Of a stretch of 64,000 nucleotides of DNA, positions 4,441-49,395 are shown one piece after another. The first letter of the stretch is position 1. The number at the start of each line of letters is the position of its first letter. The notes under the pieces are model-generated. The model was not told where the DNA came from and did no database searches. It worked only from the letters and a program-made list of their open reading frames with translations. Source of the stretch: Procambarus clarkii (Eukaryota; Arthropoda; Malacostraca; Decapoda; Cambaridae); the NCBI RefSeq assembly GCF_040958095.1, contig NC_091227.1, forward strand, positions 17,255,432 through 17,319,431, written 5' to 3'. Made by a program: the position numbers and the translations under genes.

Positions 4441-4458
4441 TACCCTCACTACGATAAC

Positions 4459-9319: not shown

Positions 9320-9925
9320 TTTCCTAACAGTTCGCTCGAGACTCAATGCTGAGCTCTCTCTGTCTTTCACTCTGTCTCTCGGTCTCTGTCTCTGTGTCCC
9401 CACCCCCTCCCCTCATCCAGTAATCCAGAATTATATTTTAGGGAATGGAATACAAGTAACTGCTGGAGACTATTGCTTTGTTTTCTCTTTCAGAATGCGA
9501 CCCGGGAGCAGCAACAACAGTTAATTTGATCAGCATTTCAGGAAGAGCCTCGTCTACAGAGATCGAGTATCGTTGCGGCAAGTGACACCTATTGCCCTTT
9601 ATACGGTAAACTAACATCTTCCTGTAAACTCTTGCCTTAAACACTGAGGTGAGGTATAAAGGAATCTTTGTATTCCTTCTCAAATGCCTTCCCTATTTTT
9701 AGGCAAATCTATACGACAGGTTATAATTTAAGGTCTCGAAATCTCTACCGTCTTGAGGTAACTCTCTGTCGTCTTGAGGTAACTCTCTGTCGTCTTGAGG
9801 TAATGTATCAAGAGAGCAGTACAGAGCAGAACAGAACAGCAGTACAACGTTGCTACAATAGTAGCAACGTTTGGGCTTATTAGTTTGCTGTACACTTTGG
9901 AAATTCACACCTTCGTCGCTAACCA
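9320..9925. other. No gene recognised; short triplication near 9740-9800
   Basis: A unit of about 22 bp (CTCTCTGTCGTCTTGAGGTAA) occurs about three times at 9740-9803. Otherwise nothing recognised. Confidence 0.45.
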
Positions 9926-10333: not shown

Positions 10334-11369
<1,036 letters not shown>

Positions 11370-13985: not shown

Positions 13986-14910
13986 CCATCCACACGACTA
14001 ACCCCTTTATCAGGGCCCAGTCCCATCCTTTCAATATTCTTTTCAAGTCGCATCATATTTCATCCCCTCCTCCAATCCAACATTCCTGAGGAATCATTTT
14101 GGCAGAATGCAGACAGGCGAGAGGCTCGGGATGCGACAGATGGTAGGGAAGGAGCGGTAAATCCTTCAGTATCCCCAGAATCCGTCTTCTTAAACTCGAT
14201 CCGTTTTCTATTCAATTCTTTGATAGAAGACGATCTCAATATTTAAAACATATACTACACAAAATCTAATAAGCTAAATAATAATAATATTGCATAAAAA
14301 ATGTTTTGAAATCTAATGAAATTAATTGTTAAACTAATAATTATATCCAAGTGTTAAATTAGATCGTTCATGTATTTTAATTCTAGATTGTTTCTTTCCA
14401 TATTTGATACGACTGCACTCGCAAATCTTTAAATAAAAAAAAACAGATGTTTAGTAAATACAGATAAAATCTTCGAGCAGAAATCAATGTTAAAGCAAAA
14501 AAATTATGTCGCTTATATATTTATTTTTATTTGTATTTTTATATACAATAGTTCTTACATTCTTGTACAGCCACTAGCACGTATAGCGTTTAGGGCAGGA
14601 CCTTAATGCTAATTTAATTAAGGTACAGGGTGAGGATACAGTTAAGCCAATTTTCGGGTAGCTTCAGGTCCCACGTACCTTCTTTTTGAGCAAACTTTTC
14701 ACGTGTAGGTCAGCCTAGGAATGAATGATCGGCGATGGAGTGGTGTTCTATGGAGGCTGTTGGTGGCTGAGCGCCTTGTGTTGTCATTTGCATCTTCTGG
14801 TTGTGCACAAAGTTGAAATCATTGGTCATATACGTAACACCTGCTTATATCTTTATGATCTTCTGGGCTCTGGTATAGTGAGCGGTCCTGCAAGAATGGG
14901 TCAAGATTTA
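13986..14910. other. No recognised gene
   Basis: AT-rich at 14240-14560; nothing supported as gene or repeat. Confidence 0.4.
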
Positions 14911-15325
14911 GGCGAGTATCTTGATACTTTAGGCGAGTATCTTGATACTCTAGGCGAGAATCTTGATACTCTAGGCGAGTATCTTCATACTCTAGGCGAG
15001 AATCTTCATACTCTAGGCGAGAATCTTCATACTCTAGGCGAGTATCTTGATACTCTAGGCGAGTATCTTGATACTCTAGGCGAGTATCTTGAAACTCTAG
15101 GCGAGAATCTTCATACTCTAGGCGAGTATCTTGATACTCTAGGCGAGTATCTTGATACTCTAGACGAGAATCTTCATACTCTAGGCGAGAATCTTCATAC
15201 TCTAGGCGAGAATCTTCATACTCTAGGCGAGAATCTTCATACTCTAGGCGAGAATCTTCATACTCTAGGCGAGAATCTTCATACTCTAGGCGAGAATCTT
15301 CATACTCTAGGCGAGTATCTTGCAA
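14911..15325. repeat. 21-bp minisatellite, about 20 copies
   Basis: Units of 21 bp (GGCGAGAATCTTCATACTCTA) in two main types, GAGAATCTTCATAC and GAGTATCTTGATAC, which are interspersed on the left and homogenised to the first type on the right. The 7-residue periods LGENLHT (plus) and RLEYEDS (minus) are artefacts of a period divisible by three. Confidence 0.95.
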
Positions 15326-16807
<1,482 letters not shown>

Positions 16808-16890: not shown

Positions 16891-16939
16891 TCACACATTC
16901 CCTTGTGCCATTTATATTTACAAAATCCTGTTCTTAAAT

Positions 16940-17580
16940 ACAAATCCTGTTCTGAAACTCTTCCTGGACAGATGTAATAGGACCCATAATCACCACACCA
17001 GAAATAAATATCTCTTTGATATTCCCAGAGTCAAACTTAATCTGTGTAAACACTCTATGCAAATAAAGGAACCTGGTCTATGGAACTCACTCCCTAACGA
17101 ATTGAAAAGCTGTCCAACTTTGCCTTATTCAGAAATAAAACCAAAAAGTACTTGATTTAATGTTCATAGTTTCCTTACCTAGTGCTTGAAACTCGCACTG
17201 CTACCCAATCCCCCAATATATGTACCTAAGCCATACAACTTTATCATTGTAATCATTGCTATCACCATATATCATGATTGATATATTGAACGCATATGTT
17301 ACTGCATTATACATTGAAATAATCCTCAAATTATACTACAATGTACCTTCTGATAATCCTTAAATTTTACTTTAATGTACCTAGTAATCTTTGTCTAATT
17401 TTCTTACACTGTACCTTTAAAAAAATCAATTTTGCAAGAAATTAATTACTTAAAATTATCTGTTCGAACCTCACCGAAACGCTATGTGTGTTAGCGGCTT
17501 TACAAGAATGTAAAAACATCAATGCTATGTACTCACATAAAGCCAATGTACCTTCTTCTATATAAATATATAAATAAATT
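16940..17580 (+). pseudogene. 5'-truncated LINE: RT C-terminus and 3' tail
   Basis: The frame ending at a TGA near 17155 reads TRNKYLFDIPRVKLNLCKHS then MQIKEPGLWNSLPNELKS, the conserved C-terminal block after a non-LTR reverse transcriptase (compare the family pattern RGP-LWNSLP). The 3' UTR follows, with GCTTTACAAGAATGTAAAAA, and ends in an (ATAAAT)-like tail at about 17560-17578. The same 3' UTR recurs at 49127-49395. The insertion ends within a few bases of the outer edge of the left arm of the large inverted duplication. Confidence 0.8.
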
Positions 17581-17582
17581 AT

Positions 17583-18175
17583 AAAGCATAAATGTTCACA
17601 CTTCAATAAGTTAAAATCACTTAATTTGTCATTAACGAGCAATATCTTAAGTCAACTGAAAGCAAATAATTAACATCATCCAGTGTTGTGTCAGGAAGTT
17701 TGTGTTGCTGTGTTTGTTAGTTTGTTATTGTATATATTATATATATTGTAGTTGTCGAGCGGCCATTATCAGCTCTTGACTGACAGACGATTACAACTTC
17801 ACTGCCGATTATATTGCAAATGTTGTACCTGTTGTACCTGTTGTTCTGTTGTAACATTTGCAATAGAATGTTGAATTTAGTTTGTGAATTAGATTTTGAA
17901 ATTAACAACTTCAAACATTCAAGCTGGGGATCATTATTGGTTCATTAGAGACTCGTTCGTATTTGTGGAAGTGAAGGAGCGGCTGTTGGCCATTGTTAAT
18001 TGACACTTCAGACTCGTAAAATGTTAACCAATGGGGGTGAGTTTTAGGGTGAATGTCAGCCAATCAGCGGCCGGGTTGGGTTGGCTGCTGGGTATATAAG
18101 TGACGATGAGACAAAAAGCACTTCAGTGTTGTTTTACCTCACTTTTGGTATACAGTTCAGCTTCGTCTCTAGAAG
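17583..18175 (+). repeat. Left arm of large inverted duplication
   Basis: Reads as the near-identical reverse complement of 26901-27435 plus, further out, of 45282-45345. It contains the upstream region, promoter and first exon of a transcription unit directed rightward. The outermost 65 bp (17583-17650) match only the third segment beyond the satellite, which shows that the right arm has been split. Confidence 0.85.
18028..18127 (+). promoter_or_regulatory. Pol II promoter, left copy (CCAAT, TATA, Inr)
   Basis: CCAAT boxes at 18028-18032 and 18060-18064, TATATAAG at 18093-18100 and an arthropod-type initiator TCAGT whose A is at 18125, 32 bases from the first TATA base. This spacing is what a working TATA/Inr core needs. 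The ATG at 18103-18108 lies upstream of the predicted start and would not be in the transcript. Confidence 0.75.
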
Positions 18176-19790
18176 GTGAGCTGTATGGTGAGGATCCGCC
18201 CCACCTGCCCCCTTTGTTGCTCCCCCCCCTGCCCTTTGTTGCGTCACCCCCTCTCTCCCCTGCCCCCTTTGTTGCGTCACCCCCTCTCTCCCCTGCCCCC
18301 TTTGTTGCGTCCCCCCCTGCCCTTTGTTGCGTCCCCCCTCTCCTCCCTGCCCCCTTTGTTGCCTCACCCCTGCCCCTTGTTGCGTCCCCCCCTCTCTCCC
18401 CTGCCCCCTTTGTTGCGTCCCCCCCTGCCCTTTGTTGCGTCCCCCCTCTCCCCCCTGCCCTTTGTTGCGTCCCCCCTCTCCCCCCTGCCCCTTTGTTGCG
18501 TCCCCCCTCTCCCCCCTGCCCTTTGTTGCGTCCCCCCTCTCCCCCCTGCCCTTTGTTGCGTCCCCCCTCTCCCCCCTGCCCTTTGTTGCGTCCCCGCGAC
18601 TTGTTGCGTCCGACCCTCGTGCCGCCCCCCCCCCCCCCTCCCTGCGTCTCCCTCCCTTTCCCTGGTTCCCCGTACTAAAAACTATTGAAGTGTCTGGGGT
18701 ATGGGGGGGGGTGGAAGGGGAATTACCACTTTAGATTTGCCTTGACTAATCGAATGTTGGGTTAAGTGCTCAGAATGCTGAGTGTTGCACTGTATCGACT
18801 TGGTTAAATGTAGACGGTTGATAAGCTTTTACTTAAGTGTTCTTAAGTCGGTTACTAAAAAGGCATAGTTAATGCACCTTGTGTAAGTTTTTTTTTTTTT
18901 TTTTTTTTCTTGGAAAAAACCTGGACTAGGCTTGCCAAATTTTTGAGTAGATAAGATGCAGGTTAGAATCCTAAATATGGGTTTTGTTACCTTTTAGTAA
19001 GCTTAGATGTATTTTTGACATGATATACATGCAAACTAGGGCTGGTAAGAACTATAATTTCTCATGGTGCGTGAATATTAATTCCTACAGCTGGGATCAA
19101 GCCAACTCTTACTGCTCGTCTTGGTAGAGGCTTCCAGCTAGTTGGTATTAGAGAAGGATAAGGACGACTTCATAAAGAGCGTTACCACCAGAAGTGAGTT
19201 TATTAATGTTATAAATTATTGAAATACATGTGCATTAAATGTGGAAATCCTGCTGGACTATTATGGTTTACAAAGCGTTAATTTTTCTAAAATTGTTAGG
19301 TTGGATCCAGTTCATGTGGATGAGAGGCTACGACGACCTGCAGGTGGTCGTCCTGGTGCTGTTCTACACAAACTGGTCTCCCACTACAGGGTCAGTTTGA
19401 CTTGTTTTACTTCATTTGTCATAGTTCATTGTCATTCCGTACGGGATGTTTGATAGATTTAAGTGCAGGTTACTCATAAGGGTTTAAACAGCTGTAAAAA
19501 TGTCTAAAAGTTAAACTTGACAATTTAAATCTTGTTTTAAGGAATATAGTTGTGATAACTGTGCCCTCTTCCGTCCCCAGGCTCGGGCGACCACAGCCAG
19601 GCCACGAGGACAGTCTCGGGGTACTGAGTAACATCTAAACTACGTCATAAAGTGACAAGACATTGCCTGTCACCACGTAAAGTACCATCTGTCACACCAG
19701 CCTTTGATACATTGTTTTGCCAGAAAATGGTAAAGTTTCCTGAATGGTGAAGTTGTAAAATATTAAAACTCAATGTTATTGAATACCTTA
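18125..19790 (+). ncRNA. Candidate spliced transcript, left copy, possibly non-coding
   Basis: Predicted by eye. Exon 1 is 18125-18175 (AGAAG before GTGAG). Exon 2 is about 19091-19193 (TTCCTACAG before, GTGAGT after). Exon 3 is about 19300-19390 (TTGTTAG before, GTCAGT after). Exon 4 starts at 19581 after CTTCCGTCCCCAG and ends past an ATTAAA at 19762-19767 with T/G-rich sequence downstream. No long frame runs through it. The longest supported spliced frame starts at ATG 19314 and gives 44 codons, with a hydrophobic LQVVVLVLFY stretch. It may be a long non-coding RNA or encode a small peptide; transcription is inferred only from signals. Confidence 0.4.
18195..18600. repeat. Pyrimidine-rich intronic minisatellite, left
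   Basis: Irregular tandem units built on CCCTTTGTTGCGTCCCCCC with CTCTCCCC variants, just inside intron 1 of the left transcript. The inverted counterpart is at 26672-26880. Length differs between arms, so the array changed after duplication. Reading frames rich in Pro here are artefacts. Confidence 0.9.
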
Positions 19791-25205: not shown

Positions 25206-26951
25206 CTTGTCAAGGTGATGTTGCCTGAATGCCTAATTTGTAGAAGTCTTGGGTATGAAGTATTCAGTATGATCACCTTCAGTTAATTTATAACTTTGGA
25301 GAACTGTAGAGACGCTTTCCTTGAAGAAGGGCTTTGGCGAAAGGAGACTAAGGATTTTCAACAAGTAGTTTCCCTCAGGAGACGAATACCACCATGGAGC
25401 CGTCGGCCCGACACCCACACTAGTGTAGGCTGAAGCATTTTGGAATCTGAAAATAAAAATCAATTTAGGACTAAAGACTGCATTTAGACATAACCCTGGT
25501 GCAAGAACATGGTTAATATGGCAAGCCAAGGTAAATGATTGAATTTTACCATCTTTTGTAATCATTACATGTGAAAGTTAAGCAGGATGCGTGTTTCAAA
25601 GGTCAGTTATCAGTTAAGTTACGCTTATCTAAGATACTCAAGACTTTGTTAGGCCTCTAGGCTAGGGTTGTAGATAACCTAGATGTTTGTAGACAACGTT
25701 TCAATCAGAGGTAAACTTTTCTTACCTCTTTGAGGAGGTGGGGGGTGTCGCCAAGCAAAAACTCTTGAAAGCAGCATTAATGCTACACCTTTGTAGCAAT
25801 AGTGACTGCTAAGAACAACGTTTACTTTACACTAAAAGTAAGAGCTTGACTGTATATTTGACAACAAGTTAACATTGTACTTTTAAGTGTAGTATTTTAC
25901 GTGCATGAATACTGTACATTATCAAACTACAACTTAAGTGCTAGAGCAATCCGCTGGGGGGGGAGTGTCCGGAGACTAGCGTCTGACTTACTCATGGTGT
26001 GTTGGTGAAGTTTGTGACAAGTGCAGACCGCCGGGGTGCTGACAAGTGAACCATTACGAACCGATAGTTAACTATCGGTATATGCAATAGTCAGGACTAA
26101 TTATTCCATTAACTTTATATATTGGGGGAACTATTTACATGACTAATTAAAGTCATGATACAAATCATGAGAAATGCCTAAATCTACGACAATTTTACGA
26201 TTAATATATACGATAGGAAATTACATAATTAGCGTTGATGGTAAAGAAAAGCCGAGACTAACACCATGGATGGACATCTTAAAAATTAACATTCTGGGCT
26301 ATGGATATAAGATAATTAGTTACCCATTAATAGAAATGGGTCTCTAGCCTGTTGAATTTAAGTAGTCATTAAAAACAAGTTACGAATTTAGTTTTGAATG
26401 TTAAATTGACTTAAAAACCAGTAACTCCCATTGTACACTTACAGAAATTTGAGATATATACTTAACTGAATTTTTAAAGTTGAAGACCAGACGTTAAGGG
26501 TTAGCCTCTCGTGATACAAGTAGGGTGGAGGAGCGTCACAGGCCAGTCTGGGTCTGCTGTAGTGCCACACGGAGCATTATGGCCACTTAACCCAACCACG
26601 AGTCCAGGAGAATCTGAAATAACAAGTTTACCCCGCATGAACTTCACTACTTCCAGTACGGGGAAGGGGAAATGGAGAGGGGGGGACGCAACAAGGGGCA
26701 GGGGGGGACGCAACAAAGGGCAGGGGGAGAGGGGGGACGCAACAAAGGGCAGGGGGAGAGGGGGGACGCAACAAAGGGCAGGGGGAGAGGGGGGACGCAA
26801 CAAAGGGCAGGGGGAGAGGGGGGACGCAACAAAGGGCAGGGGGAGAGGGGGGGACGCAACAAAGGGGGCAGGTGGGGAGGATCCTCACCATACAGCTCAC
26901 CTTCAAGAGACGAAGCTGAACTGTATACCAAAAGTGAGGTAAAACAACACT
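25206..26951 (-). ncRNA. Candidate spliced transcript, right copy, minus strand
   Basis: Predicted from the inverted promoter at 26.95-27.05 kb. Exon 1 is 26951-26901 (51 nt, same length as the left copy; GAAG before GTGAGC). Exon 2 is about 26613-26443 (ATTTCAG before, GTAAGT after). Exon 3 is about 25446-25206 (TTTATTTTCAG before, GTAACT after). Exon 3 carries an open stretch with SAYTSVGVGPTAPWWYSSPE up to a TAG at 25233, but exon 2 has a stop in the frame continued from exon 1. I recognise no protein. It shares exon 1 and promoter with the left unit but not the downstream exons, so the two copies would make chimeric, different RNAs. Confidence 0.35.
26672..26880. repeat. Purine-rich intronic minisatellite, right
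   Basis: About eight units of GGGGGACGCAACAAAGGGCA with short G/A expansions. It is the inverted counterpart of 18195-18600, about half as long, and more regular. Confidence 0.9.
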
Positions 26952-27435
26952 GAAGTGCTTTTTGCCTCATCGTCACTTATATATCCAGCAGCCAACCCAA
27001 CCCAGCCACTGATTGGCTGACGTTCACCCTAAACCTCACCCCCATTGGTTAACATTTTGCGAGTCTGAAGTGTCAGTTAACAATGACCAACAGCCGCTCC
27101 TTCACTTCCACAAATACGAACGTGTCTCTAATGAACCAATAATGATCCCCAGCTTGAATGTTTGAAGTTGTTAATTTCAAAATCTAATTCACAAACTAAA
27201 TTCAACATTCTATTGCAAATGTTGCCACAGAACAACAGGTACAACAGGTACAACATTTGCAATATAATCGGCAGTGAAGTTGTAATCGTCATGTCAGTCA
27301 AGAGCTGATAATGGCCGCTCGACAACTACAATATATATAATATATACAATAACAAACTAACAAACACAGCAACACAAACTTCCTGACACAACACTGGATG
27401 ATGTTAATTATTTGCTTTCAGTTGACTTAAGATAT
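26901..27435 (-). repeat. Right arm of large inverted duplication, inner part
   Basis: Near-identical reverse complement of 17650-18175. It stops at 27435, after which 48 bases with a G-run lead into the satellite. 27129-27435 also occurs in direct orientation at 44976-45281 on the other side of the satellite. Confidence 0.85.
26949..27048 (-). promoter_or_regulatory. Pol II promoter, right copy, minus strand
   Basis: Minus-strand CCAAT boxes at 27048-27044 and 27016-27012, TATATAAG at 26983-26976, initiator TCAGT with its A at 26951. The 32-base TATA-Inr spacing of the left copy is preserved exactly. Promoter elements are intact in both arms although surrounding bases have diverged. Confidence 0.75.
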
Positions 27436-27482
27436 CTATTAAGATATTACCTCTTGGGGGGGTGGGGGTTATAACCAAGTAA

Positions 27483-30400
27483 AGCCATAGAATCGCTTTG
27501 AAAATGGTACCATTGTGTTTACCACAGCAATTTACATTTCTTTCTGTAAAGGCTTTCTTTGCTAATTTTCAATATGAAGGCCTTTACACGCATATTTACC
27601 GAGATACGGCCATCTCAAATATAAAAAATTTCATCGTGTTTTCTCAACATACTATTAAGAAAAATTTGTTGAAAAACATGTAATAATAATAATAAAGAGC
27701 TGAATAAAAAATGGGTAATGAAAATTAAGTAATTTCTATAATATTCCTTTACTTAGAGAGTATTTTGAATGGTACTTATATGGGCATATGTATGGTACTT
27801 ACAACAGCATATGTATGGTACTTATAACAGCATATGTATGGTACTTATAACTGCATATGTATGGTACTTATATGGCATATGTATCGTGCTTATTATGGTA
27901 TACGTGTGGTACTTATAATAGGAAATATATGGTACTTATAATGCCATATGTGTGGTACTTATAATCGCAAATGTATGGTACCTATAATGGCATATGTATG
28001 GTACTTATAAAGTCATAAGTACGGCACTTGTAAAGACATACGTATGGTTCTTATAAAGACATGTATGATACTTGTAATGGCATGTGTATGGCCCTTATAA
28101 TGGCATATGTATGTTACTTATAATGACATCATATGGTACTTATAAAGACATAAGATGGTCCTTATAAAGCCATATGTATAGTACTCATAAAGCCATGAAA
28201 AGTACTGAACTTATAAAGACATGTATGATACTTATATTGGCATATGTATGGTACTTATAAAGGCATATGTATGGTATTTACATAGACATATATATGATAC
28301 TTACAACGACATATCTATGGTACTTAGAAGGGCATATGTATGATACTTATATGGGCATATCAATGGTACTTACACGAGCCTATGTGTAATACTTATATGG
28401 CCATTTTATGGTCATGTGTATGGTACATATATTGTTACGTGTATGGTACTTATATGGGCATGAGAATGGTACTTATATGGGCATGAGAATGGTACTTATA
28501 TGGTCATATGTATAGTACTTAACTCAGCCCGTCCTCCTAAGGTTCCTAACGTCAAGAAAAGGTCAATTTAAGGTGTAATCGCCTAACCTACCACAAGACC
28601 CAAATCAGAAAACGGGACAGTACGTCACTTTAGCGACCAGCTTACATTTTCTGCCACACAGCCTTTTGCCAGGAAAGAATCGCAGCCCGGGCGAAATCGT
28701 CATTTTTCTCAAAACTCAAAATCAAAACTAGCCATAGAATCGCTTTGAAAATGGTACCATTGTGTTTACCACAGCAATTTACATTTCTTTCTGTAAAGGC
28801 TTTCTTTGCTAATTTTCAATATGAAGGCCTTTACACGCATATTTACCGAGATACGGCCATCTCAAATATCAAAAATTTCATCGTGTTTTCTCAACATACT
28901 ATTAAGAAAAATTTGTTGAAAAACATGTAATAATAATAATAAAGAGCTGAATAAAAAATGGGTAATGAAAATTAAGTAATTTCTATAATATTCCTTTACT
29001 TAGAGAGTATTTTGAATGGTACTTATATGGGCATATGTATGGTACTTACAACAGCATATGTATGGTACTTATAACAGCATATGTATGGTACTTATAACTG
29101 CATATGTATGGTACTTATATGGCATATGTATCGTGCTTATTATGGTATACGTGTGGTACTTATAATAGGAAATATATGGTACTTATAATGCCATATGTGT
29201 GGTACTTATAATCGCAAATGTATGGTACCTATAATGGCATATGTATGGTACTTATAAAGTCATAAGTACGGCACTTGTAAAGACATACGTATGGTTCTTA
29301 TAAAGACATGTATGATACTTGTAATGGCATGTGTATGGCCCTTATAATGGCATATGTATGTTACTTATAATGACATCATATGGTACTTATAAAGACATAA
29401 GATGGTCCTTATAAAGCCATATGTATAGTACTCATAAAGCCATGAAAAGTACTGAACTTATAAAGACATGTATGATACTTATATTGGCATATGTATGGTA
29501 CTTATAAAGGCATATGTATGGTATTTACATAGACATATATATGATACTTACAACGACATATCTATGGTACTTAGAAGGGCATATGTATGATACTTATATG
29601 GGCATATCAATGGTACTTACACGAGCCTATGTGTAATACTTATATGGCCATTTTATGGTCATGTGTATGGTACATATATTGTTACGTGTATGGTACTTAT
29701 ATGGGCATGAGAATGGTACTTATATGGGCATGAGAATGGTACTTATATGGTCATATGTATAGTACTTAACTCAGCCCGTCCTCCTAAGGTTCCTAACGTC
29801 AAGAAAAGGTCAATTTAAGGTGTAATCGCCTAACCTACCACAAGACCCAAATCAGAAAACGGGACAGTACGTCACTTTAGCGACCAGCTTACATTTTCTG
29901 CCACACAGCCTTTTGCCAGGAAAGAATCGCAGCCCGGGCGAAATCGTCATTTTTCTCAAAACTCAAAATCAAAACTAGCCATAGAATCGCTTTGAAAATG
30001 GTACCATTGTGTTTACCACAGCAATTTACATTTCTTTCTGTAAAGGCTTTCTTTGCTAATTTTCAATATGAAGGCCTTTACACGCATATTTACCGAGATA
30101 CGGCCATCTCAAATATCAAAAATTTCATCGTGTTTTCTCAACATACTATTAAGAAAAATTTGTTGAAAAACATGTAATAATAATAATAAAGAGCTGAATA
30201 AAAAATGGGTAATGAAAATTAAGTAATTTCTATAATATTCCTTTACTTAGAGAGTATTTTGAATGGTACTTATATGGGCATATGTATGGTACTTACAACA
30301 GCATATGTATGGTACTTATAACAGCATATGTATGGTACTTATAACTGCATATGTATGGTACTTATATGGCATATGTATCGTGCTTATTATGGTATACTGT

Positions 30401-33400
30401 GTGGTACTTATAATAGGAAATATATGGTACTTATAATGCCATATGTGTGGTACTTATAATCGCAAATGTATGGTACCTATAATGGCATATGTATGGTACT
30501 TATAAAGTCATAAGTACGGCACTTGTAAAGACATACGTATGGTTCTTATAAAGACATGTATGATACTTGTAATGGCATGTGTATGGCCCTTATAATGGCA
30601 TATGTATGTTACTTATAATGACATCATATGGTACTTATAAAGACATAAGATGGTCCTTATAAAGCCATATGTATAGTACTCATAAAGCCATGAAAAGTAC
30701 TGAACTTATAAAGACATGTATGATACTTATATTGGCATATGTATGGTACTTATAAAGGCATATGTATGGTATTTACATAGACATATATATGATACTTACA
30801 ACGACATATCTATGGTACTTAGAAGGGCATATGTATGATACTTATATGGGCATATCAATGGTACTTACACGAGCCTATGTGTAATACTTATATGGCCATT
30901 TTATGGTCATGTGTATGGTACATATATTGTTACGTGTATGGTACTTATATGGGCATGAGAATGGTACTTATATGGGCATGAGAATGGTACTTATATGGTC
31001 ATATGTATAGTACTTAACTCAGCCCGTCCTCCTAAGGTTCCTAACGTCAAGAAAAGGTCAATTTAAGGTGTAATCGCCTAACCTACCACAAGACCCAAAT
31101 CAGAAAACGGGACAGTACGTCACTTTAGCGACCAGCTTACATTTTCTGCCACACAGCCTTTTGCCAGGAAAGAATCGCAGCCCGGGCGAAATCGTCATTT
31201 TTCTCAAAACTCAAAATCAAAACTAGCCATAGAATCGCTTTGAAAATGGTACCATTGTGTTTACCACAGCAATTTACATTTCTTTCTGTAAAGGCTTTCT
31301 TTGCTAATTTTCAATATGAATGGCCTTTACACGCATATTTACCGAGATACGGCCATCTCAAATATCAAAAATTTCATCGTGTTTTCTCAACATACTATTA
31401 AGAAAAATTTGTTGAAAAACATGTAATAATAATAATAAAGAGCTGAATAAAAAATGGGTAATGAAAATTAAGTAATTTCTATAATATTCCTTTACTTAGA
31501 GAGTATTTTGAATGGTACTTATATGGGCATATGTATGGTACTTACAACAGCATATGTATGGTACTTATAACAGCATATGTATGGTACTTATAACTGCATA
31601 TGTATGGTACTTATATGGCATATGTATCGTGCTTATTATGGTATACGTGTGGTAACTTATAATAGGAAATATATGGTACTTATAATGCCATATGTGTGGT
31701 ACTTATAATCGCAAATGTATGGTACCTATAATGGCATATGTATGGTACTTATAAAGTCATAAGTACGGCACTTGTAAAGACATACGTATGGTTCTTATAA
31801 AGACATGTATGATACTTGTAATGGCATGTGTATGGCCCTTATAATGGCATATGTATGTTACTTATAATGACATCATATGGTACTTATAAAGACATAAGAT
31901 GGTCCTTATAAAGCCATATGTATAGTACTCATAAAGCCATGAAAAGTACTGAACTTATAAAGACATGTATGATACTTATATTGGCATATGTATGGTACTT
32001 ATAAAGGCATATGTATGGTATTTACATAGACATATATATGATACTTACAACGACATATCTATGGTACTTAGAAGGGCATATGTATGATACTTATATGGGC
32101 ATATCAATGGTACTTACACGAGCCTATGTGTAATACTTATATGGCCATTTTATGGTCATGTGTATGGTACATATATTGTTACGTGTATGGTACTTATATG
32201 GGCATGAGAATGGTACTTATATGGGCATGAGAATGGTACTTATATGGTCATATGTATAGTACTTAACTCAGCCCGTCCTCCTAAGGTTCCTAACGTCAAG
32301 AAAAGGTCAATTTAAGGTGTAATCGCCTAACCTACCACAAGACCCAAATCAGAAAACGGGACAGTACGTCACTTTAGCGACCAGCTTACATTTTCTGCCA
32401 CACAGCCTTTTGCCAGGAAAGAATCGCAGCCCGGGCGAAATCGTCATTTTTCTCAAAACTCAAAATCAAAACTAGCCATAGAATCGCTTTGAAAATGGTA
32501 CCATTGTGTTTACCACAGCAATTTACATTTCTTTCTGTAAAGGCTTTCTTTGCTAATTTTCAATATGAAGGCCTTTACACGCATATTTACCGAGATACGG
32601 CCATCTCAAATATCAAAAATTTCATCGTGTTTTCTCAACATACTATTAAGAAAAATTTGTTGAAAAACATGTAATAATAATAATAAAGAGCTGAATAAAA
32701 AATGGGTAATGAAAATTAAGTAATTTCTATAATATTCCTTTACTTAGAGAGTATTTTGAATGGTACTTATATGGGCATATGTATGGTACTTACAACAGCA
32801 TATGTATGGTACTTATAACAGCATATGTATGGTACTTATAACTGCATATGTATGGTACTTATATGGCATATGTATCGTGCTTATTATGGTATACGTGTGG
32901 TACTTATAATAGGAAATATATGGTACTTATAATGCCATATGTGTGGTACTTATAATCGCAAATGTATGGTACCTATAATGGCATATGTATGGTACTTATA
33001 AAGTCATAAGTACGGCACTTGTAAAGACATACGTATGGTTCTTATAAAGACATGTATGATACTTGTAATGGCATGTGTATGGCCCTTATAATGGCATATG
33101 TATGTTACTTATAATGACATCATATGGTACTTATAAAGACATAAGATGGTCCTTATAAAGCCATATGTATAGTACTCATAAAGCCATGAAAAGTACTGAA
33201 CTTATAAAGACATGTATGATACTTATATTGGCATATGTATGGTACTTATAAAGGCATATGTATGGTATTTACATAGACATATATATGATACTTACAACGA
33301 CATATCTATGGTACTTAGAAGGGCATATGTATGATACTTATATGGGCATATCAATGGTACTTACACGAGCCTATGTGTAATACTTATATGGCCATTTTAT

Positions 33401-36400
33401 GGTCATGTGTATGGTACATATATTGTTACGTGTATGGTACTTATATGGGCATGAGAATGGTACTTATATGGGCATGAGAATGGTACTTATATGGTCATAT
33501 GTATAGTACTTAACTCAGCCCGTCCTCCTAAGGTTCCTAACGTCAAGAAAAGGTCAATTTAAGGTGTAATCGCCTAACCTACCACAAGACCCAAATCAGA
33601 AAACGGGACAGTACGTCACTTTAGCGACCAGCTTACATTTTCTGCCACACAGCCTTTTGCCAGGAAAGAATCGCAGCCCGGGCGAAATCGTCATTTTTCT
33701 CAAAACTCAAAATCAAAACTAGCCATAGAATCGCTTTGAAAATGGTACCATTGTGTTTACCACAGCAATTTACATTTCTTTCTGTAAAGGCTTTCTTTGC
33801 TAATTTTCAATATGAAGGCCTTTACACGCATATTTACCGAGATACGGCCATCTCAAATATCAAAAATTTCATCGTGTTTTCTCAACATACTATTAAGAAA
33901 AATTTGTTGAAAAACATGTAATAATAATAATAAAGAGCTGAATAAAAAATGGGTAATGAAAATTAAGTAATTTCTATAATATTCCTTTACTTAGAGAGTA
34001 TTTTGAATGGTACTTATATGGGCATATGTATGGTACTTACAACAGCATATGTATGGTACTTATAACAGCATATGTATGGTACTTATAACTGCATATGTAT
34101 GGTACTTATATGGCATATGTATCGTGCTTATTATGGTATACGTGTGGTACTTATAATAGGAAATATATGGTACTTATAATGCCATATGTGTGGTACTTAT
34201 AATCGCAAATGTATGGTACCTATAATGGCATATGTATGGTACTTATAAAGTCATAAGTACGGTACTTGTAAAGACATACGTATGGTTCTTATAAAGACAT
34301 GTATGATACTTGTAATGGCATGTGTATGGCCCTTATAATGGCATATGTATGTTACTTATAATGACATCATATGGTACTTATAAAGACATAAGATGGTCCT
34401 TATAAAGCCATATGTATAGTACTCATAAAGCCATGAAAAGTACTGAACTTATAAAGACATGTATGATACTTATATTGGCATATGTATGGTACTTATAAAG
34501 GCATATGTATGGTATTTACATAGACACATATATGATACTTACAACGACATATCTATGGTACTTAGAAGGGCATATGTATGATACTTATATGGGCATATCA
34601 ATGGTACTTACACGAGCCTATGTGTAATACTTATATGGCCATTTTATGGTCATGTGTATGGTACATATATTGTTACGTGTATGGTACTTATATGGGCATG
34701 AGAATGGTACTTATATGGGCATGAGAATGGTACTTATATGGTCATATGTATAGTACTTAACTCAGCCCGTCCTCCTAAGGTTCCTAACGTCAAGAAAAGG
34801 TCAATTTAAGGTGTAATCGCCTAACCTACCACAAGACCCAAATCAGAAAACGGGACAGTACGTCACTTTAGCGACCAGCTTACATTTTCTGCCACACAGC
34901 CTTTTGCCAGGAAAGAATCGCAGCCCGGGCGAAATCGTCATTTTTCTCAAAACTCAAAATCAAAACTAGCCATAGAATCGCTTTGAAAATGGTACCATTG
35001 TGTTTACCACAGCAATTTACATTTCTCTCTGTAAAGGCTTTCTTTGCTAATTTTCAATATGAAGGCCTTTACACGCATATTTACCGAGATACGGCCATCT
35101 CAAATATCAAAAATTTCATCGTGTTTTCTCAACATACTATTAAGAAAAATTTGTTGAAAAACATGTAATAATAATAATAAAGAGCTGAATAAAAAATGGG
35201 TAATGAAAATTAAGTAATTTCTATAATATTCCTTTACTTAGAGAGTATTTTGAATGGTACTTATATGGGCATATGTATGGTACTTACAACAGCATATGTA
35301 TGGTACTTATAACAGCATATGTATGGTACTTATAACTGCATATGTATGGTACTTATATGGCATATGTATCGTGCTTATTATGGTATACGTGTGGTACTTA
35401 TAATAGGAAATATATGGTACTTATAATGCCATATGTGTGGTACTTATAATCGCAAATGTATGGTACCTATAATGGCATATGTATGGTACTTATAAAGTCA
35501 TAAGTACGGCACTTGTAAAGACATACGTATGGTTCTTATAAAGACATGTATGATACTTGTAATGGCATGTGTATGGCCCTTATAATGGCATATGTATGTT
35601 ACTTATAATGACATCATATGGTACTTATAAAGACATAAGATGGTCCTTATAAAGCCATATGTATAGTACTCATAAAGCCATGAAAAGTACTGAACTTATA
35701 AAGACATGTATGATACTTATATTGGCATATGTATGGTACTCATAAAGGCATATGTATGGTATTTACATAGACATATATATGATACTTACAACGACATATC
35801 TATGGTACTTAGAAGGGCATATGTATGATACTTATATGGGCATATCAATGGTACTTACACGAGCCTATGTGTAATACTTATATGGCCATTTTATGGTCAT
35901 GTGTATGGTACATATATTGTTACGTGTATGGTACTTATATGGGCATGAGAATGGTACTTATATGGGCATGAGAATGGTACTTATATGGTCATATGTATAG
36001 TACTTAACTCAGCCCGTCCTCCTAAGGTTCCTAACGTCAAGAAAAGGTCAATTTAAGGTGTAATCGCCTAACCTACCACAAGACCCAAATCAGAAAACGG
36101 GACAGTACGTCACTTTAGCGACCAGCTTACATTTTCTGCCACACAGCCTTTTGCCAGGAAAGAATCGCAGCCCGGGCGAAATCGTCATTTTTCTCAAAAC
36201 TCAAAATCAAAACTAGCCATAGAATCGCTTTGAAAATGGTACCATTGTGTTTACCACAGCAATTTACATTTCTTTCTGTAAAGGCTTTCTTTGCTAATTT
36301 TCAATATGATGGCCTTTACACGCATATTTACCGAGATACGGCCATCTCAAATATCAAAAATTTCATCGTGTTTTCTCAACATACTATTAAGAAAAATTTG

Positions 36401-39400
36401 TTGAAAAACATGTAATAATAATAATAAAGAGCTGAATAAAAAATGGGTAATGAAAATTAAGTAATTTCTATAATATTCCTTTACTTAGAGAGTATTTTGA
36501 ATGGTACTTATATGGGCATATGTATGGTACTTACAACAGCATATGTATGGTACTTATAACAGCATATGTATGGTACTTATAACTGCATATGTATGGTACT
36601 TATATGGCATATGTATCGTGCTTATTATGGTATACGTGTGGTAACTTATAATAGGAAATATATGGTACTTATAATGCCATATGTGTGGTACTTATAATCG
36701 CAAATGTATGGTACCTATAATGGCATATGTATGGTACTTATAAAGTCATAAGTACGGCACTTGTAAAGACATACGTATGGTTCTTATAAAGACATGTATG
36801 ATACTTGTAATGGCATGTGTATGGCCCTTATAATGGCATATGTATGTTACTTATAATGACATCATATGGTACTTATAAAGACATAAGATGGTCCTTATAA
36901 AGCCATATGTATAGTACTCATAAAGCCATGAAAAGTAATGAACTTATAAAGACATGTATGATACTTATATTGGCATATGTATGGTACTTATAAAGGCATA
37001 TGTATGGTATTTACATAGACATATATATGATACTTACAACGACATATCTATGGTACTTAGAAGGGCATATGTATGATACTTATATGGGCATATCAATGGT
37101 ACTTACACGAGCCTATGTGTAATACTTATATGGCCATTTTATGGTCATGTGTATGGTACATATATTGTTACGTGTATGGTACTTATATGGGCATGAGAAT
37201 GGTACTTATATGGGCATGAGAATGGTACTTATATGGTCATATGTATAGTACTTAACTCAGCCCGTCCTCCTAAGGTTCCTAACGTCAAGAAAAGGTCAAT
37301 TTAAGGTGTAATCGCCTAACCTACCACAAGACCCAAATCAGAAAACGGGACAGTACGTCACTTTAGCGACCAGCTTACATTTTCTGCCACACAGCCTTTT
37401 GCCAGGAAAGAATCGCAGCCCGGGCGAAATCGTCATTTTTCTCAAAACTCAAAATCAAAACTAGCCATAGAATCGCTTTGAAAATGGTACCATTGTGTTT
37501 ACCACAGCAATTTACATTTCTTTCTGTAAAGGCTTTCTTTGCTAATTTTCAATATGAAGGCCTTTACACGCATATTTACCGAGATACGGCCATCTCAAAT
37601 ATCAAAAATTTCATCGTGTTTTCTCAACATACTATTAAGAAAAATTTGTTGAAAAACATGTAATAATAATAATAAAGAGCTGAATAAAAAATGGGTAATG
37701 AAAATTAAGTAATTTCTATAATATTCCTTTACTTAGAGAGTATTTTGAATGGTACTTATATGGGCATATGTATGGTACTTACAACAGCATATGTATGGTA
37801 CTTATAACAGCATATGTATGGTACTTATAACTGCATATGTATGGTACTTATATGGCATATGTATCGTGCTTATTATGGTATACGTGTGGAACTTATAATA
37901 GGAAATATATGGTACTTATAATGCCATATGTGTGGTACTTATAATCGCAAATGTATGGTACCTATAATGGCATATGTATGGTACTTATAAAGTCATAAGT
38001 ACGGCACTTGTAAAGACATACGTATGGTTCTTATAAAGACATGTATGATACTTGTAATGGCATGTGTATGGCCCTTATAATGGCATATGTATGTTACTTA
38101 TAATGACATCATATGGTACTTATAAAGACATAAGATGGTCCTTATAAAGCCATATGTATAGTACTCATAAAGCCATGAAAAGTACTGAACTTATAAAGAC
38201 ATGTATGATACTTATATTGGCATATGTATGGTACTTATAAAGGCATATGTATGGTATTTACATAGACATATATATGATACTTACAACGACATATCTATGG
38301 TACTTAGAAGGGCATATGTATGATACTTATATGGGCATATCAATGGTACTTACACGAGCCTATGTGTAATACTTATATGGCCATTTTATGGTCATGTGTA
38401 TGGTACATATATTGTTACGTGTATGGTACTTATATGGGCATGAGAATGGTACTTATATGGGCATGAGAATGGTACTTATATGGTCATATGTATAGTACTT
38501 AACTCAGCCCGTCCTCCTAAGGTTCCTAACGTCAAGAAAAGGTCAATTTAAGGTGTAATCGCCTAACCTACCACAAGACCCAAATCAGAAAACGGGACAG
38601 TACGTCACTTTAGCGACCAGCTTACATTTTCTGCCACACAGCCTTTTGCCAGGAAAGAATCGCAGCCCGGGCGAAATCGTCATTTTTCTCAAAACTCAAA
38701 ATCAAAACTAGCCATAGAATCGCTTTGAAAATGGTACCATTGTGTTTACCACAGCAATTTACATTTCTTTCTGTAAAGGCTTTCTTTGCTAATTTTCAAT
38801 ATGAAGGCCTTTACACGCATATTTACCGAGATACGGCCATCTCAAATATCAAAAATTTCATCGTGTTTTCTCAACATACTATTAAGAAAAATTTGTTGAA
38901 AAACATGTAATAATAATAATAAAGAGCTGAATAAAAAATGGGTAATGAAAATTAAGTAATTTCTATAATATTCCTTTACTTAGAGAGTATTTTGAATGGT
39001 ACTTATATGGGCATATGTATGGTACTTACAACAGCATATGTATGGTACTTATAACAGCATATGTATGGTACTTATAACTGCATATGTATGGTACTTATAT
39101 GGCATATGTATCGTGCTTATTATGGTATACGTGTGGTACTTATAATAGGAAATATATGGTACTTATAATGCCATATGTGTGGTACTTATAATCGCAAATG
39201 TATGGTACCTATAATGGCATATGTATGGTACTTATAAAGTCATAAGTACGGCACTTGTAAAGACATACGTATGGTTCTTATAAAGACATGTATGATACTT
39301 GTAATGGCATGTGTATGGCCCTTATAATGGCATATGTATGTTACTTATAATGACATCATATGGTACTTATAAAGACATAAGATGGTCCTTATAAAGCCAT

Positions 39401-42400
39401 ATGTATAGTACTCATAAAGCCATGAAAAGTACTGAACTTATAAAGACATGTATGATACTTATATTGGCATATGTATGGTACTCATAAAGGCATATGTATG
39501 GTATTTACATAGACATATATATGATACTTACAACGACATATCTATGGTACTTAGAAGGGCATATGTATGATACTTATATGGGCATATCAATGGTACTTAC
39601 ACGAGCCTATGTGTAATACTTATATGGCCATTTTATGGTCATGTGTATGGTACATATATTGTTACGTGTATGGTACTTATATGGGCATGAGAATGGTACT
39701 TATATGGGCATGAGAATGGTACTTATATGGTCATATGTATAGTACTTAACTCAGCCCGTCCTCCTAAGGTTCCTAACGTCAAGAAAAGGTCAATTTAAGG
39801 TGTAATCGCCTAACCTACCACAAGACCCAAATCAGAAAACGGGACAGTACGTCACTTTAGCGACCAGCTTACATTTTCTGCCACACAGCCTTTTGCCAGG
39901 AAAGAATCGCAGCCCGGGCGAAATCGTCATTTTTCTCAAAACTCAAAATCAAAACTAGCCATAGAATCGCTTTGAAAATGGTACCATTGTGTTTACCACA
40001 GCAATTTACATTTCTTTCTGTAAAGGCTTTCTTTGCTAATTTTCAATATGAAGGCCTTTACACGCATATTTACCGAGATACGGCCATCTCAAATATCAAA
40101 AATTTCATCGTGTTTTCTCAACATACTATTAAGAAAAATTTGTTGAAAAACATGTAATAATAATAATAAAGAGCTGAATAAAAAATGGGTAATGAAAATT
40201 AAGTAATTTCTATAATATTCCTTTACTTAGAGAGTATTTTGAATGGTACTTATATGGGCATATGTATGGTACTTACAACAGCATATGTATGGTACTTATA
40301 ACAGCATATGTATGGTACTTATAACTGCATATGTATGGTACTTATATGGCATATGTATCGTGCTTATTATGGTATACGTGTGGAACTTATAATAGGAAAT
40401 ATATGGTACTTATAATGCCATATGTGTGGTACTTATAATCGCAAATGTATGGTACCTATAATGGCATATGTATGGTACTTATAAAGTCATAAGTACGGCA
40501 CTTGTAAAGACATACGTATGGTTCTTATAAAGACATGTATGATACTTGTAATGGCATGTGTATGGCCCTTATAATGGCATATGTATGTTACTTATAATGA
40601 CATCATATGGTACTTATAAAGACATAAGATGGTCCTTATAAAGCCATATGTATAGTACTCATAAAGCCATGAAAAGTACTGAACTTATAAAGACATGTAT
40701 GATACTTATATTGGCATATGTATGGTACTTATAAAGGCATATGTATGGTATTTACATAGACATATATATGATACTTACAACGACATATCTATGGTACTTA
40801 GAAGGGCATATGTATGATACTTATATGGGCATATCAATGGTACTTACACGAGCCTATGTGTAATACTTATATGGCCATTTTATGGTCATGTGTATGGTAC
40901 ATATATTGTTACGTGTATGGTACTTATATGGGCATGAGAATGGTACTTATATGGGCATGAGAATGGTACTTATATGGTCATATGTATAGTACTTAACTCA
41001 GCCCGTCCTCCTAAGGTTCCTAACGTCAAGAAAAGGTCAATTTAAGGTGTAATCGCCTAACCTACCACAAGACCCAAATCAGAAAACGGGACAGTACGTC
41101 ACTTTAGCGACCAGCTTACATTTTCTGCCACACAGCCTTTTGCCAGGAAAGAATCGCAGCCCGGGCGAAATCGTCATTTTTCTCAAAACTCAAAATCAAA
41201 ACTAGCCATAGAATCGCTTTGAAAATGGTACCATTGTGTTTACCACAGCAATTTACATTTCTTTCTGTAAAGGCTTTCTTTGCTAATTTTCAATATGAAG
41301 GCCTTTACACGCATATTTACCGAGATACGGCCATCTCAAATATCAAAAATTTCATCGTGTTTTCTCAACATACTATTAAGAAAAATTTGTTGAAAAACAT
41401 GTAATAATAATAATAAAGAGCTGAATAAAAAATGGGTAATGAAAATTAAGTAATTTCTATAATATTCCTTTACTTAGAGAGTATTTTGAATGGTACTTAT
41501 ATGGGCATATGTATGGTACTTACAACAGCATATGTATGGTACTTATAACAGCATATGTATGGTACTTATAACTGCATATGTATGGTACTTATATGGCATA
41601 TGTATCGTGCTTATTATGGTATACGTGTGGTACTTATAATAGGAAATATATGGTACTTATAATGCCATATGTGTGGTACTTATAATCGCAAATGTATGGT
41701 ACCTATAATGGCATATGTATGGTACTTATAAAGTCATAAGTACGGCACTTGTAAAGACATACGTATGGTTCTTATAAAGACATGTATGATACTTGTAATG
41801 GCATGTGTATGGCCCTTATAATGGCATATGTATGTTACTTATAATGACATCATATGGTACTTATAAAGACATAAGATGGTCCTTATAAAGCCATATGTAT
41901 AGTACTCATAAAGCCATGAAAAGTACTGAACTTATAAAGACATGTATGATACTTATATTGGCATATGTATGGTACTCATAAAGGCATATGTATGGTATTT
42001 ACATAGACATATATATGATACTTACAACGACATATCTATGGTACTTAGAAGGGCATATGTATGATACTTATATGGACATATCAATGGTACTTACACGAGC
42101 CTATGTGTAATACTTATATGGCCATTTTATGGTCATGTGTATGGTACATATATTGTTACGTGTATGGTACTTATATGGGCATGAGAATGGTACTTATATG
42201 GGCATGAGAATGGTACTTATATGGTCATATGTATAGTACTTAACTCAGCCCGTCCTCCTAAGGTTCCTAACGTCAAGAAAAGGTCAATTTAAGGTGTAAT
42301 CGCCTAACCTACCACAAGACCCAAATCAGAAAACGGGACAGTACGTCACTTTAGCGACCAGCTTACATTTTCTGCCACACAGCCTTTTGCCAGGAAAGAA

Positions 42401-44974
42401 TCGCAGCCCGGGCGAAATCGTCATTTTTCTCAAAACTCAAAATCAAAACTAGCCATAGAATCGCTTTGAAAATGGTACCATTGTGTTTACCACAGCAATT
42501 TACATTTCTTTCTGTAAAGGCTTTCTTTGCTAATTTTCAATATGAAGGCCTTTACACGCATATTTACCGAGATACGGCCATCTCAAATATCAAAAATTTC
42601 ATCGTGTTTTCTCAACATACTATTAAGAAAAATTTGTTGAAAAACATGTAATAATAATAATAAAGAGCTGAATAAAAAATGGGTAATGAAAATTAAGTAA
42701 TTTCTATAATATTCCTTTACTTAGAGAGTATTTTGAATGGTACTTATATGGGCATATGTATGGTACTTACAACAGCATATGTATGGTACTTATAACAGCA
42801 TATGTATGGTACTTATAACTGCATATGTATGGTACTTATATGGCATATGTATCGTGCTTATTATGGTATACGTGTGGTACTTATAATAGGAAATATATGG
42901 TACTTATAATGCCATATGTGTGGTACTTATAATCGCAAATGTATGGTACCTATAATGGCATATGTATGGTACTTATAAAGTCATAAGTACGGTACTTGTA
43001 AAGACATACGTATGGTTCTTATAAAGACATGTATGATACTTGTAATGGCATGTGTATGGCCCTTATAATGGCATATGTATGTTACTTATAATGACATCAT
43101 ATGGTACTTATAAAGACATAAGATGGTCCTTATAAAGCCATATGTATAGTACTCATAAAGCCATGAAAAGTACTGAACTTATAAAGACATGTATGATACT
43201 TATATTGGCATATGTATGGTACTTATAAAGGCATATGTATGGTATTTACATAGACACATATATGATACTTACAACGACATATCTATGGTACTTAGAAGGG
43301 CATATGTATGATACTTATATGGGCATATCAATGGTACTTACACGAGCCTATGTGTAATAATTATATGGCCATTTTATGGTCATGTGTATGGTACATATAT
43401 TGTTACGTGTATGGTACTTATATGGGCATGAGAATGGTACTTATATGGGCATGAGAATGGTACTTATATGGTCATATGTATAGTACTTAACTCAGCCCGT
43501 CCTCCTAAGGTTCCTAACGTCAAGAAAAGGTCAATTTAAGGTGTAATCGCCTAACCTACCACAAGACCCAAATCAGAAAACGGGACAGTACGTCACTTTA
43601 GCGACCAGCTTACATTTTCTGCCACACAGCCTTTTGCTAGGAAAGAATCGCAGCCCGGGCGAAATCGTCATTTTTCTCAAAACTCAAAATCAAAACTAGC
43701 CATAGAATCGCTTTGAAAATGGTACCATTGTGTTTACCACAGCAATTTACATTTTTTTCTGTAAAGGCTTTCTTTGCTAATTTTCAATATGAAGGCCTTT
43801 ACACGCATATTTACCGAGATACGGCCATCTCAAATATCAAAAATTTCATCGTGTTTTCTCAACATACTATTAAGAAAAATTTGTTGAAAAACATGTAATA
43901 ATAATAATAAAGAGCTGAATAAAAAATGGGTAATGAAAATTAAGTAATTTCTATAATATTCCTTTACTTAGAGAGTATTTTGAATGGTACTTATATGGGC
44001 ATATGTATGGTACTTACAACAGCATATGTATGGTACTTATAACAGCATATGTATGGTACTTATAACTGCATATGTATGGTACTTATATGGCATATGTATC
44101 GTGCTTATTATGGTATACGTGTGGTACTTATAATAGGAAATATATGGTACTTATAATGCCATATGTGTGGTACTTATAATCGCAAATGTATGGTACCTAT
44201 AATGGCATATGTATGGTACTTATAAAGTCATAAGTACGGCACTTGTAAAGACATACGTATGGTTCTTATAAAGACATGTATGATACTTGTAATGGCATGT
44301 GTATGGCCCTTATAATGGCATATGTATGTTACTTATAATGACATCATATGGTACTTATAAAGACATAAGATGGTCCTTATAAAGCCATATGTATAGTACT
44401 CATAAAGCCATGAAAAGTACTGAACTTATAAAGACATGTATGATACTTATATTGGCATATGTATGGTACTTATAAAGGCATATGTATGGTATTTACATAG
44501 ACATATATATGATACTTACAACGACATATCTATGGTACTTAGAAGGGCATATGTATGATACTTATATGGGCATATCAATGGTACTTACACGAGCCTATGT
44601 GTAATACTTATATGGCCATTTTATGGTCATGTGTATGGTACATATATTGTTACGTGTATGGTACTTATATGGGCATGAGAATGGTACTTATATGGGCATG
44701 AGAATGGTACTTATATGGTCATATGTATAGTACTTAACTCAGCCCGTCCTCCTAAGGTTCCTAACGTCAAGAAAAGGTCAATTTAAGGTGTAATCGCCTA
44801 ACCTACCACAAGACCCAAATCAGAAAACGGGACAGTACGTCACTTTAGCGACCAGCTTACATTTTCTGCCACACAGCCTTTTGCCAGGAAAGAATCGCAG
44901 CCCGGGCGAAATCGTCATTTTTCTCAAAACTCAAAATCAAAACTAGCCATAGAATCGCTTTGAAAATGGTACCA
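27483..44974. repeat. 1,247-bp satellite array, 14 monomers
   Basis: Head-to-tail monomers start at 27483, 28730, 29977, 31225, 32474, 33721, 34968, 36215, 37463, 38710, 39957, 41204, 42451 and 43698, with a 30-base stub from 44945. Thirteen boundaries give 1247-1249 bp; monomers differ by a handful of changes. Each has three parts: about 285 bp with a 61-codon frame (MKMVPLCLPQQF start); about 750 bp of degenerate 23-25-bp subrepeats of the GGTACTTATAATGGCATATG type; and about 220 bp ending in the CCTAACC, AGAAAACGGGACAG and CAGCCCGGGCGAAATCG blocks. The frame is intact in 13 of 14 copies, but near-identity of copies makes that uninformative about coding. No transposase, tRNA or rRNA is seen. 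Confidence 0.97.
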
Positions 44975-44975
44975 A

Positions 44976-45345
44976 TAATGAACCAATAAGGATCCCCAGC
45001 TTGAATGTTTGAAGTTGTTAATTTCAAAATCTAATTCACAAGCTAAATTCAACATTCCATTGCAAATGTTGCAACAGAACAACAGGTACAACAGGTACAA
45101 CATTTGCAATATAATCGACAGTGAAGTTGTAATCGTCTGTCAGTCAAGAGCTGATAATGGCCGCTCGACAACTACAATATATATAATATATACAATAACA
45201 AACTAACAAACACAGCAACACAAACTTCCTGACACAACACTGGATGATGTTAATTATTTGCTTTCAGTTGACTTAAGATATTGCTCGTTAATGACAAATT
45301 AAGTGATTTTAACTTATTGAAGTGTGAACATTTATGCTTTATACT
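44976..45345 (-). repeat. Right arm of inverted duplication, outer part
   Basis: 44976-45281 repeats 27129-27435 in the same orientation. 45282-45345 continues into sequence that matches only the outermost left arm (17583-17650, inverted). It lacks the promoter and exon, so it is the distal end of the original right arm, displaced by the satellite. Confidence 0.85.
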
Positions 45346-46050: not shown

Positions 46051-46167
46051 CAACATCCACTCACAAACCCTGCAGCACTCAAGCTAAATAGAGAGCAAAC
46101 AAGGGTCCGAATGAACCCTAATGGAGTGTACAGAAGAACGTGACTGGTCCCTCGCTAGGTTCTCTCC

Positions 46168-46565
46168 CACCTGCTGCCCCAACACCCACCTGCTGGCCCC
46201 CAACACCCACCTGCTGGCCCCCAACACCCACCTGCTGCCCCCCAACACCCACCTGTTGCCTCAAACACTCACCTGCTGCCCCCCAACACCCACCTGCTGG
46301 CCCCAACATCCACGTGTTACCTCAAACACTCACCTGCTGCCCCCCAACACCCACCTGCTGACCCCCAACACCCACCTGCTGGCCCCAACATCCACGTGTT
46401 ACCTCAAACACTCACCTGCTGCCCCCCAACACCCACCTGCTGACCCCCAACACCCACCTGCTGGCCCCAACATCCACCTGCTGGCCCCAACACCCACCTG
46501 CTGGCCCCCCAACACCCACCTGCTGCCTCCAACACCCACCTGCTGCCTCCAACACCCACCTTCCT
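46168..46565. repeat. 20-21-bp minisatellite, about 19 copies
   Basis: Units of CCAACACCCACCTGCTGGCC with TGCCTCAAACACTC and TGACCCC variants. A block of four unit types (GTTACCTCAAACACTC to GGCCCCAACATCCACGT) repeats near 46314 and 46396, a higher-order period of about 82 bp. Confidence 0.92.
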
Positions 46566-49126: not shown

Positions 49127-49395
49127 GTTATATTGAGCGCATATTTTACTACAATATACTTGTTGATAATCCTCAAATTTTACTATAATATACCAACTAA
49201 TCTTCGTCAAATTTTCTTACAATGTTCCTGTTAACTTCAATTTTGCTAGAAATTACCTACTTAAAATTATCTGTTAGATTAAGGACCTGCCCGAATCGCT
49301 ATGCCTGTTAGTGGCTTTACAAGAATGTAAAAACATCAATATGTACTCTCACAAACCCAATGTACCTTCTTATATATATATACATTTATATATGT
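49127..49395 (+). mobile_element. LINE 3' UTR fragment
   Basis: Collinear with 17270-17575, sharing AAATTATCTGTT and GGCTTTACAAGAATGTAAAA, and ending in an AT-rich tail. No coding part remains, so it is a severely 5'-truncated insertion of the same LINE family. Confidence 0.75.

Follow-up and report, generated by a model that had tools for sequence, protein, structure and literature searches.

The stretch analyzed here, 64,000 nucleotides of Procambarus clarkii DNA from contig NC_091227.1 (positions 17,255,432 to 17,319,431; hereafter, the window), carries a 17.5-kb composite tandem array that lies within a dispersed segment, and a second copy of this segment in the same window lacks the array. 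The most probable reading is that a young array of a known kind entered the dispersed segment by break repair and then expanded by exchange. As a satellite array it appears to be of an ordinary kind, with an insertion site that is unusually easy to read. For the more specific scenario, in which a satellite-like complex array was inserted by repair of a staggered break and subsequently expanded by unequal exchange, we see an even chance of being right.

The array forms a single segment, delimited exactly by 25-mers that recur at a spacing of 1200–1300 bp:

27483..44974, forward strand: tandem array of 14 full 1247–1249-bp monomers and 30 bp of a fifteenth

An earlier note, made from the sequence alone, had placed 14 near-identical monomers of about 1,247 bp at these coordinates, and both the boundaries and the count were borne out: the 25-mer anchor marks 15 starts and 14 steps, giving lengths of 1247 bp (11 monomers), 1248 bp (two), and 1249 bp (one). 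The monomers have a guanine plus cytosine (GC) content of 33% and vary at only 15 of 1250 aligned columns. Across the 91 pairs, they differ at a mean of 2.85 positions (range 0–7), and copies 2 and 5 match the consensus exactly. The monomer count and the few variable columns agree with the view of the earlier note that this is a young composite array, recently amplified or homogenized. Built from homogenized head-to-tail units above 100 bp without coding capacity (the longest frame starting with ATG is at chance level, see below), the array is satellite-like and fits the macrosatellites. Near-identical copies would also be seen if the assembly had wrongly multiplied one or a few monomers, and 17.5 kb is near the length of long reads. 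However, private variants are present in 8 of the 14 monomers and both array edges continue into other sequence, so that a simple assembly duplication looks unlikely; the variants shared between copies, described below, follow no fixed period either. Overall, we regard an assembly artefact as very improbable.

A direct duplication of 307 bp brackets the array, and its left and right copies (B5 and B3), which are 98% alike, are both parts of a longer host segment, R. A second, inverted copy of R, termed E, is found upstream in the window. The elements of the site are as follows:

26660..27128, forward strand: left part of host segment R outside the duplication, with a minisatellite and with promoter-like motifs on the minus strand
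27129..27435, forward strand: B5, left-hand copy of the direct repeat (307 bp) that flanks the array
27436..27482, forward strand: filler of 47 bp between B5 and the array
44976..45281, forward strand: B3, right-hand copy of this repeat (306 bp)
45282..45343, forward strand: 62 bp following B3, without any difference from the array-free paralogue E
17580..18618, reverse strand: E, inverted paralogue of host segment R without the array, with a single B block at 17642–17947

The B block is thus doubled at the array and single in E, a paralogue rather than an allele. Because E carries this block once and no array, the comparison with the paralogue shows the array to be an insertion into a pre-existing repeated segment. 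The 47-bp filler has no exact match of 12 bp or longer elsewhere in the window. The earlier note had mentioned neither the flanking duplication nor the filler nor the paralogue. At position 17580, E abuts another repeat (17327–17579), which is itself 81% related to 49140–49393.

Both copies of R also contain a GC-rich minisatellite with a common CCCTTTGTTGCGTCCCCC-type unit (18210–18595 and 26674–26866), as well as promoter-like motifs at 18028–18185 on the forward strand and 26880–27050 on the reverse strand. These motifs are two CCAAT boxes (18028 and 18060; complement at 27012 and 27044) and a TATA box (18093; complement at 26976) with a possible splice donor downstream of it. In the array-bearing copy of R, some 500 bp separate the TATA box from the array upstream of it.

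The array-free paralogue, the flanking direct repeat, and the filler at one joint speak for repair of a staggered break. In this scenario, a break would have left ends staggered by about 300 nt, which would have been filled in and joined around captured satellite DNA of one or a few monomers, leaving the flanking direct repeat. Unequal exchange among its copies would later have enlarged the captured unit into an array and maintained its uniformity. The monomers would then be younger than the flank duplication, and the degenerate 23-bp subrepeats within the unit would represent an older layer of tandem growth. We infer both the repair route and the order of these events. Vaughn and Bennetzen are said to have described tandem duplications arising by staggered-break fill-in in 2014. 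Small tandem duplications of this origin are reported in mouse and human cells by Schimmel et al (2021; PMC8355091), and they share with the site studied here a direct duplication of the target sequence at the joint. Unlike the small duplications described in that paper, however, the one seen here is about 307 bp long and encloses 17.5 kb of tandem DNA (PMC8355091).

The flanks and the monomers differ in their degree of divergence. B5 and B3 show six changes (five substitutions and one indel) in 614 bp; in the monomers, minor-state cells number 21 (17 substitutions and four indels) over 17,458 bp. The per-base rate of change is thus about eightfold higher in the flank copies (conditional binomial P = 2.5e-4; P = 7e-4 for substitutions alone), even though a variant shared between monomers was counted in every copy that carries it, which makes the array rate higher. 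Since the flanks are more diverged, the monomers were probably amplified or homogenized after the insertion, provided that both B copies arose by that insertion and B3 did not come from elsewhere.

This difference speaks against a one-step replicative insertion, in which a broken end would copy a monomer circle about 14 times by rolling circle and return 307 bp upstream, so that array and duplication would arise together. Such an event would account jointly for the duplication, the filler, and the near-identity of the monomers, and small copied repeats do adjoin both joints. In addition, a survey of plant satellites detected circles in multiples of the monomer for every satellite that it examined (PMC2543021). 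The variants within the array nevertheless argue for later events. Five variable columns are common to two or three copies, namely 9 and 11; 4 and 8; 6 and 13 (two columns); and 7, 10, and 12. As copies 6 and 13 share two columns, repeated mutation is implausible for this pair, and the sharing among all four groups, which joins non-adjacent copies, implies that monomers were duplicated or exchanged after the shared variants had arisen. No pair of shared columns shows all four combinations, so that whole-monomer duplication suffices; in our reading, a duplication of the pair 9–10 into 11–12 would account for two of the sharing groups. Furthermore, at each fixed period between 1 and 10 monomers, more matches of shared variants are broken than retained, and we therefore rejected the rolling circle of a fixed-size multimer. 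Taken with the joint repeats considered next, these observations leave one-step insertion an unlikely alternative.

The filler at the left joint repeats, near its own start, the last 9 bp of B5, and at the right joint the start of B3 lies partly within an imperfect tandem repeat of 11 bp. Local repeats of this kind are attained at 9.7% (left) and 3.8% (right) of random places in this repeat-rich window. They are compatible with template-switching repair and do not demonstrate it; being near chance, they do not favor one-step insertion, and we did not count them as support for polymerase-theta repair. The array opens with monomer position 1 and breaks off at position 30. Because an overlap this short is expected for only about 2.5% of random cut pairs, this hints mildly at a first insert made up of a single unit bounded by 30-bp terminal repeats, which was multiplied later.

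Several observations weigh against insertion by staggered-break repair followed by expansion. First, a duplication of 307 bp looks long for fill-in, a class introduced as short (< 100 bp) insertions in PMC8355091, and the small repeats at the joints are near chance here as well. Second, copies that share variants are no closer to each other than random ones (P = 0.32), whereas exchange between neighbors predicts closeness. Third, E models the pre-insertion site as a stand-in by homology only, being a paralogue and not an allele. Fourth, among the three B copies, B3 stands furthest apart, with five substitutions from E and five from B5, compared to two substitutions and one indel between B5 and E. 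B3 may therefore originate from another copy of R, in which case the age contrast would fail; on the B5 branch alone, this contrast is not significant (P = 0.059). Finally, B5 is closer to E than the adjoining part of R is (2 of 306 versus 11 of 249 substitutions, P = 0.004; P = 0.07 in the same test for B3), which suggests conversion between copies of R that muddies the dating.

The deviant B3 also bears on a further explanation, in which a circle that contained monomers and a single B block would have recombined with a B block in the chromosome. A single crossover would yield the observed order of B block, array, and B block, and B3 does differ from B5 as though it came from another source. 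On the other hand, this route requires an earlier locus with B joined to the array, and the present locus is the only one in the window; the filler would also have to derive from the circle. We consider recombination with such a circle quite unlikely, and staggered-break repair with later unequal exchange remains our preferred reading.

The monomer itself is composite, and its three blocks are given here for the first copy:

27483..27767, forward strand: block U of monomer 1 (monomer positions 1–285; 28% GC)
27768..28522, forward strand: block S of monomer 1 (monomer positions 286–1040; 32% GC), with 32 degenerate subrepeats at a commonest spacing of 23 bp
28523..28729, forward strand: block D of monomer 1 (monomer positions 1041–1247; 45% GC)
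16176..16230, forward strand: dispersed stretch related to part of block D, 79% alike across 57 columns

Block U is AT-rich, contains the 12-bp palindrome AATGGTACCATT, and matches nothing in those parts of the window that lie beyond the array. The earlier note had described it as a unique block with a 61-codon frame. Its uniqueness holds within the window; the frame measures 59 codons from its ATG, and since equal or longer frames are present in 254 of 500 dinucleotide-shuffled monomers, we dropped the idea of a coding role. Block S contains the roughly 30 degenerate subrepeats that the note had described. Among 39 fuzzy hits in the monomer, we kept 32 in-register units (positions 286–1028) and dropped seven, of which two lie in block U, three do not keep the register, and two sit at the far edge; in the full list of 39 hits, 25 of 38 intervals equal 23 bp. 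The motif GCATATG occurs 10 times per monomer, and CATATG 14 times. The 32 subrepeats show a mean pairwise likeness of only 73% (77% between neighbors and 72% between units more than 10 apart), and by this measure the inner layer is far older than the array. The third block had been described as related to dispersed sequence, which applies to one piece of it: 55 bp of block D (monomer positions 1100–1154) resemble 16176–16230 (E value 2.5e-6), and this is the single relative of the monomer found in the window outside the array at an E value of 1e-3.

With its composite nature, its internal minisatellite, and its partly dispersed third block, the monomer could be a non-autonomous mobile element whose copies insert next to each other, either of a Helitron-like type or bounded by terminal inverted repeats; elements of these types are known to form tandem arrays. 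Against this, the nine inverted pairs of 11–31 bp in the region of the first monomer (27400–28800) include no long matching terminal inverted repeats that join both monomer ends, and no frame exceeds chance. At its joints, the array begins with AGCC and ends with GGTACC, in disagreement with the TC start and CTRR end of Helitrons; six CTRR sites lie inside the monomer, and a Helitron of permuted origin would remain compatible. The 307-bp flanking duplication also far exceeds the target-site duplications known from transposons. Insertion as a mobile element thus seems hardly probable at all.

We also considered other roles for the array. An array of structural RNA genes or spacers, including ribosomal or tRNA units, was rejected, as the window contains no known RNA match: Rfam yielded none at its gathering score and none at an E value of up to 1 in 26600–30000, and ARAGORN with the bacterial code found no tRNA. 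The CENP-B box TTCGNNNNANNCGGG of centromeric satellites has two one-mismatch matches in the window, none of which falls in the array, with 3.9 expected by chance. We propose no sequence-specific function for the array, which shows no sign of coding capacity; we infer that it lacks function.

Relatives of the monomer were sought in viral, prokaryote, phage, and plasmid collections, to which the following negatives apply. Two patterns of block D and pieces of blocks S and U had no exact-pattern match in viral contigs, and one monomer had no blastn match in phages or plasmids. A 22-base piece of block D was found in one Bacteroides contig among the prokaryote contigs, with the similarity confined to those 22 bases. 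A literature search covering titles, abstract starts, and open-access text retrieved no description of the monomer, and four strings from block D occur in no open-access paper. The land crab Gecarcinus lateralis has a 2.1-kb satellite, for which the literature search returned no record.

Satellites of similar build are documented in other organisms. In four families, the macrosatellites (units above 100 bp) of freshwater crayfish reach lengths of 2657, 4898, 1920, and 2700 bp, and a peak near 30% GC was noted in five genera (PMC13130569). The monomer described here, at 1247 bp and 33% GC, resembles these macrosatellites in its long tandem unit. Because crayfish macrosatellites reach several kb and include a class near 30% GC, its length and composition are within the known crustacean range. 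Unlike the crayfish satellitomes (PMC13130569), the array is known as one 17.5-kb locus, and the comparison is one of length and GC, not of sequence. In Lathyrus sativus, satellites have grown from short tandem arrays inside long terminal repeat (LTR) retrotransposons (PMC7004042). Both cases combine short inner repeats within a larger unit and tandem growth tied to dispersed sequence. In contrast to the Lathyrus case (PMC7004042), no retrotransposon was identified around the monomer, and the array interrupts R and is absent from E.

The remainder of the window is unusually rich in minisatellites, with further long ones at 1300–2518, 4456–6404, 14909–15321, and 46166–46561. A near-perfect palindrome of about 1 kb (10339–11355), 98% self-complementary across 1018 columns, is bounded by (AT)n on either side and encloses ACCTA/TAGGT repeats. 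Three related stretches of 75–186 bp (709–823, 7719–7900, and 9143–9330), in direct and inverted orientation and 89–95% alike, are possibly a foldback or miniature mobile element. The region 16900–17579 resembles the end of an element of the long interspersed nuclear element (LINE) type, with an open frame and an AT-rich tail (17327–17579); the frame includes a sequence like those of LINE C-termini, and Pfam gave no support. The only gene recognized in the window lies at 63051–63938 on the reverse strand and encodes the C-terminus of a P5B-type cation/polyamine ATPase, whose best structure match is the human Polyamine-transporting ATPase 13A2 (ATP13A2; E value 2.8e-39). Pfam searches of 10 open frames gave a weak match to a cation-ATPase C-terminus at 63054–63998 (E value 0.0036, below its cut-off), for which a shorter form of the frame had no match at 1e-3, and one further match (E value 0.088) that we attribute to chance.

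The first entry of a new satellite array into a chromosome is rarely visible, as old arrays are long and their edges have decayed. Here, both edges, the flanking duplication, and an array-free paralogue are present within one 64-kb window, so that the order of events becomes testable. An old insertion with later expansion would be the ordinary case, whereas an array that arose together with its flanking duplication would support the spread of satellites by circles or by replicative repair. It is conceivable, though we think it rather improbable, that a satellite has been caught here at birth: after its release in circular form, a monomer would have been copied into a staggered break many times over, and the 307-bp flank duplication would have closed the break. 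If so, complex satellites could enter ordinary repeat-rich DNA as ready-made arrays and would not only grow in place.

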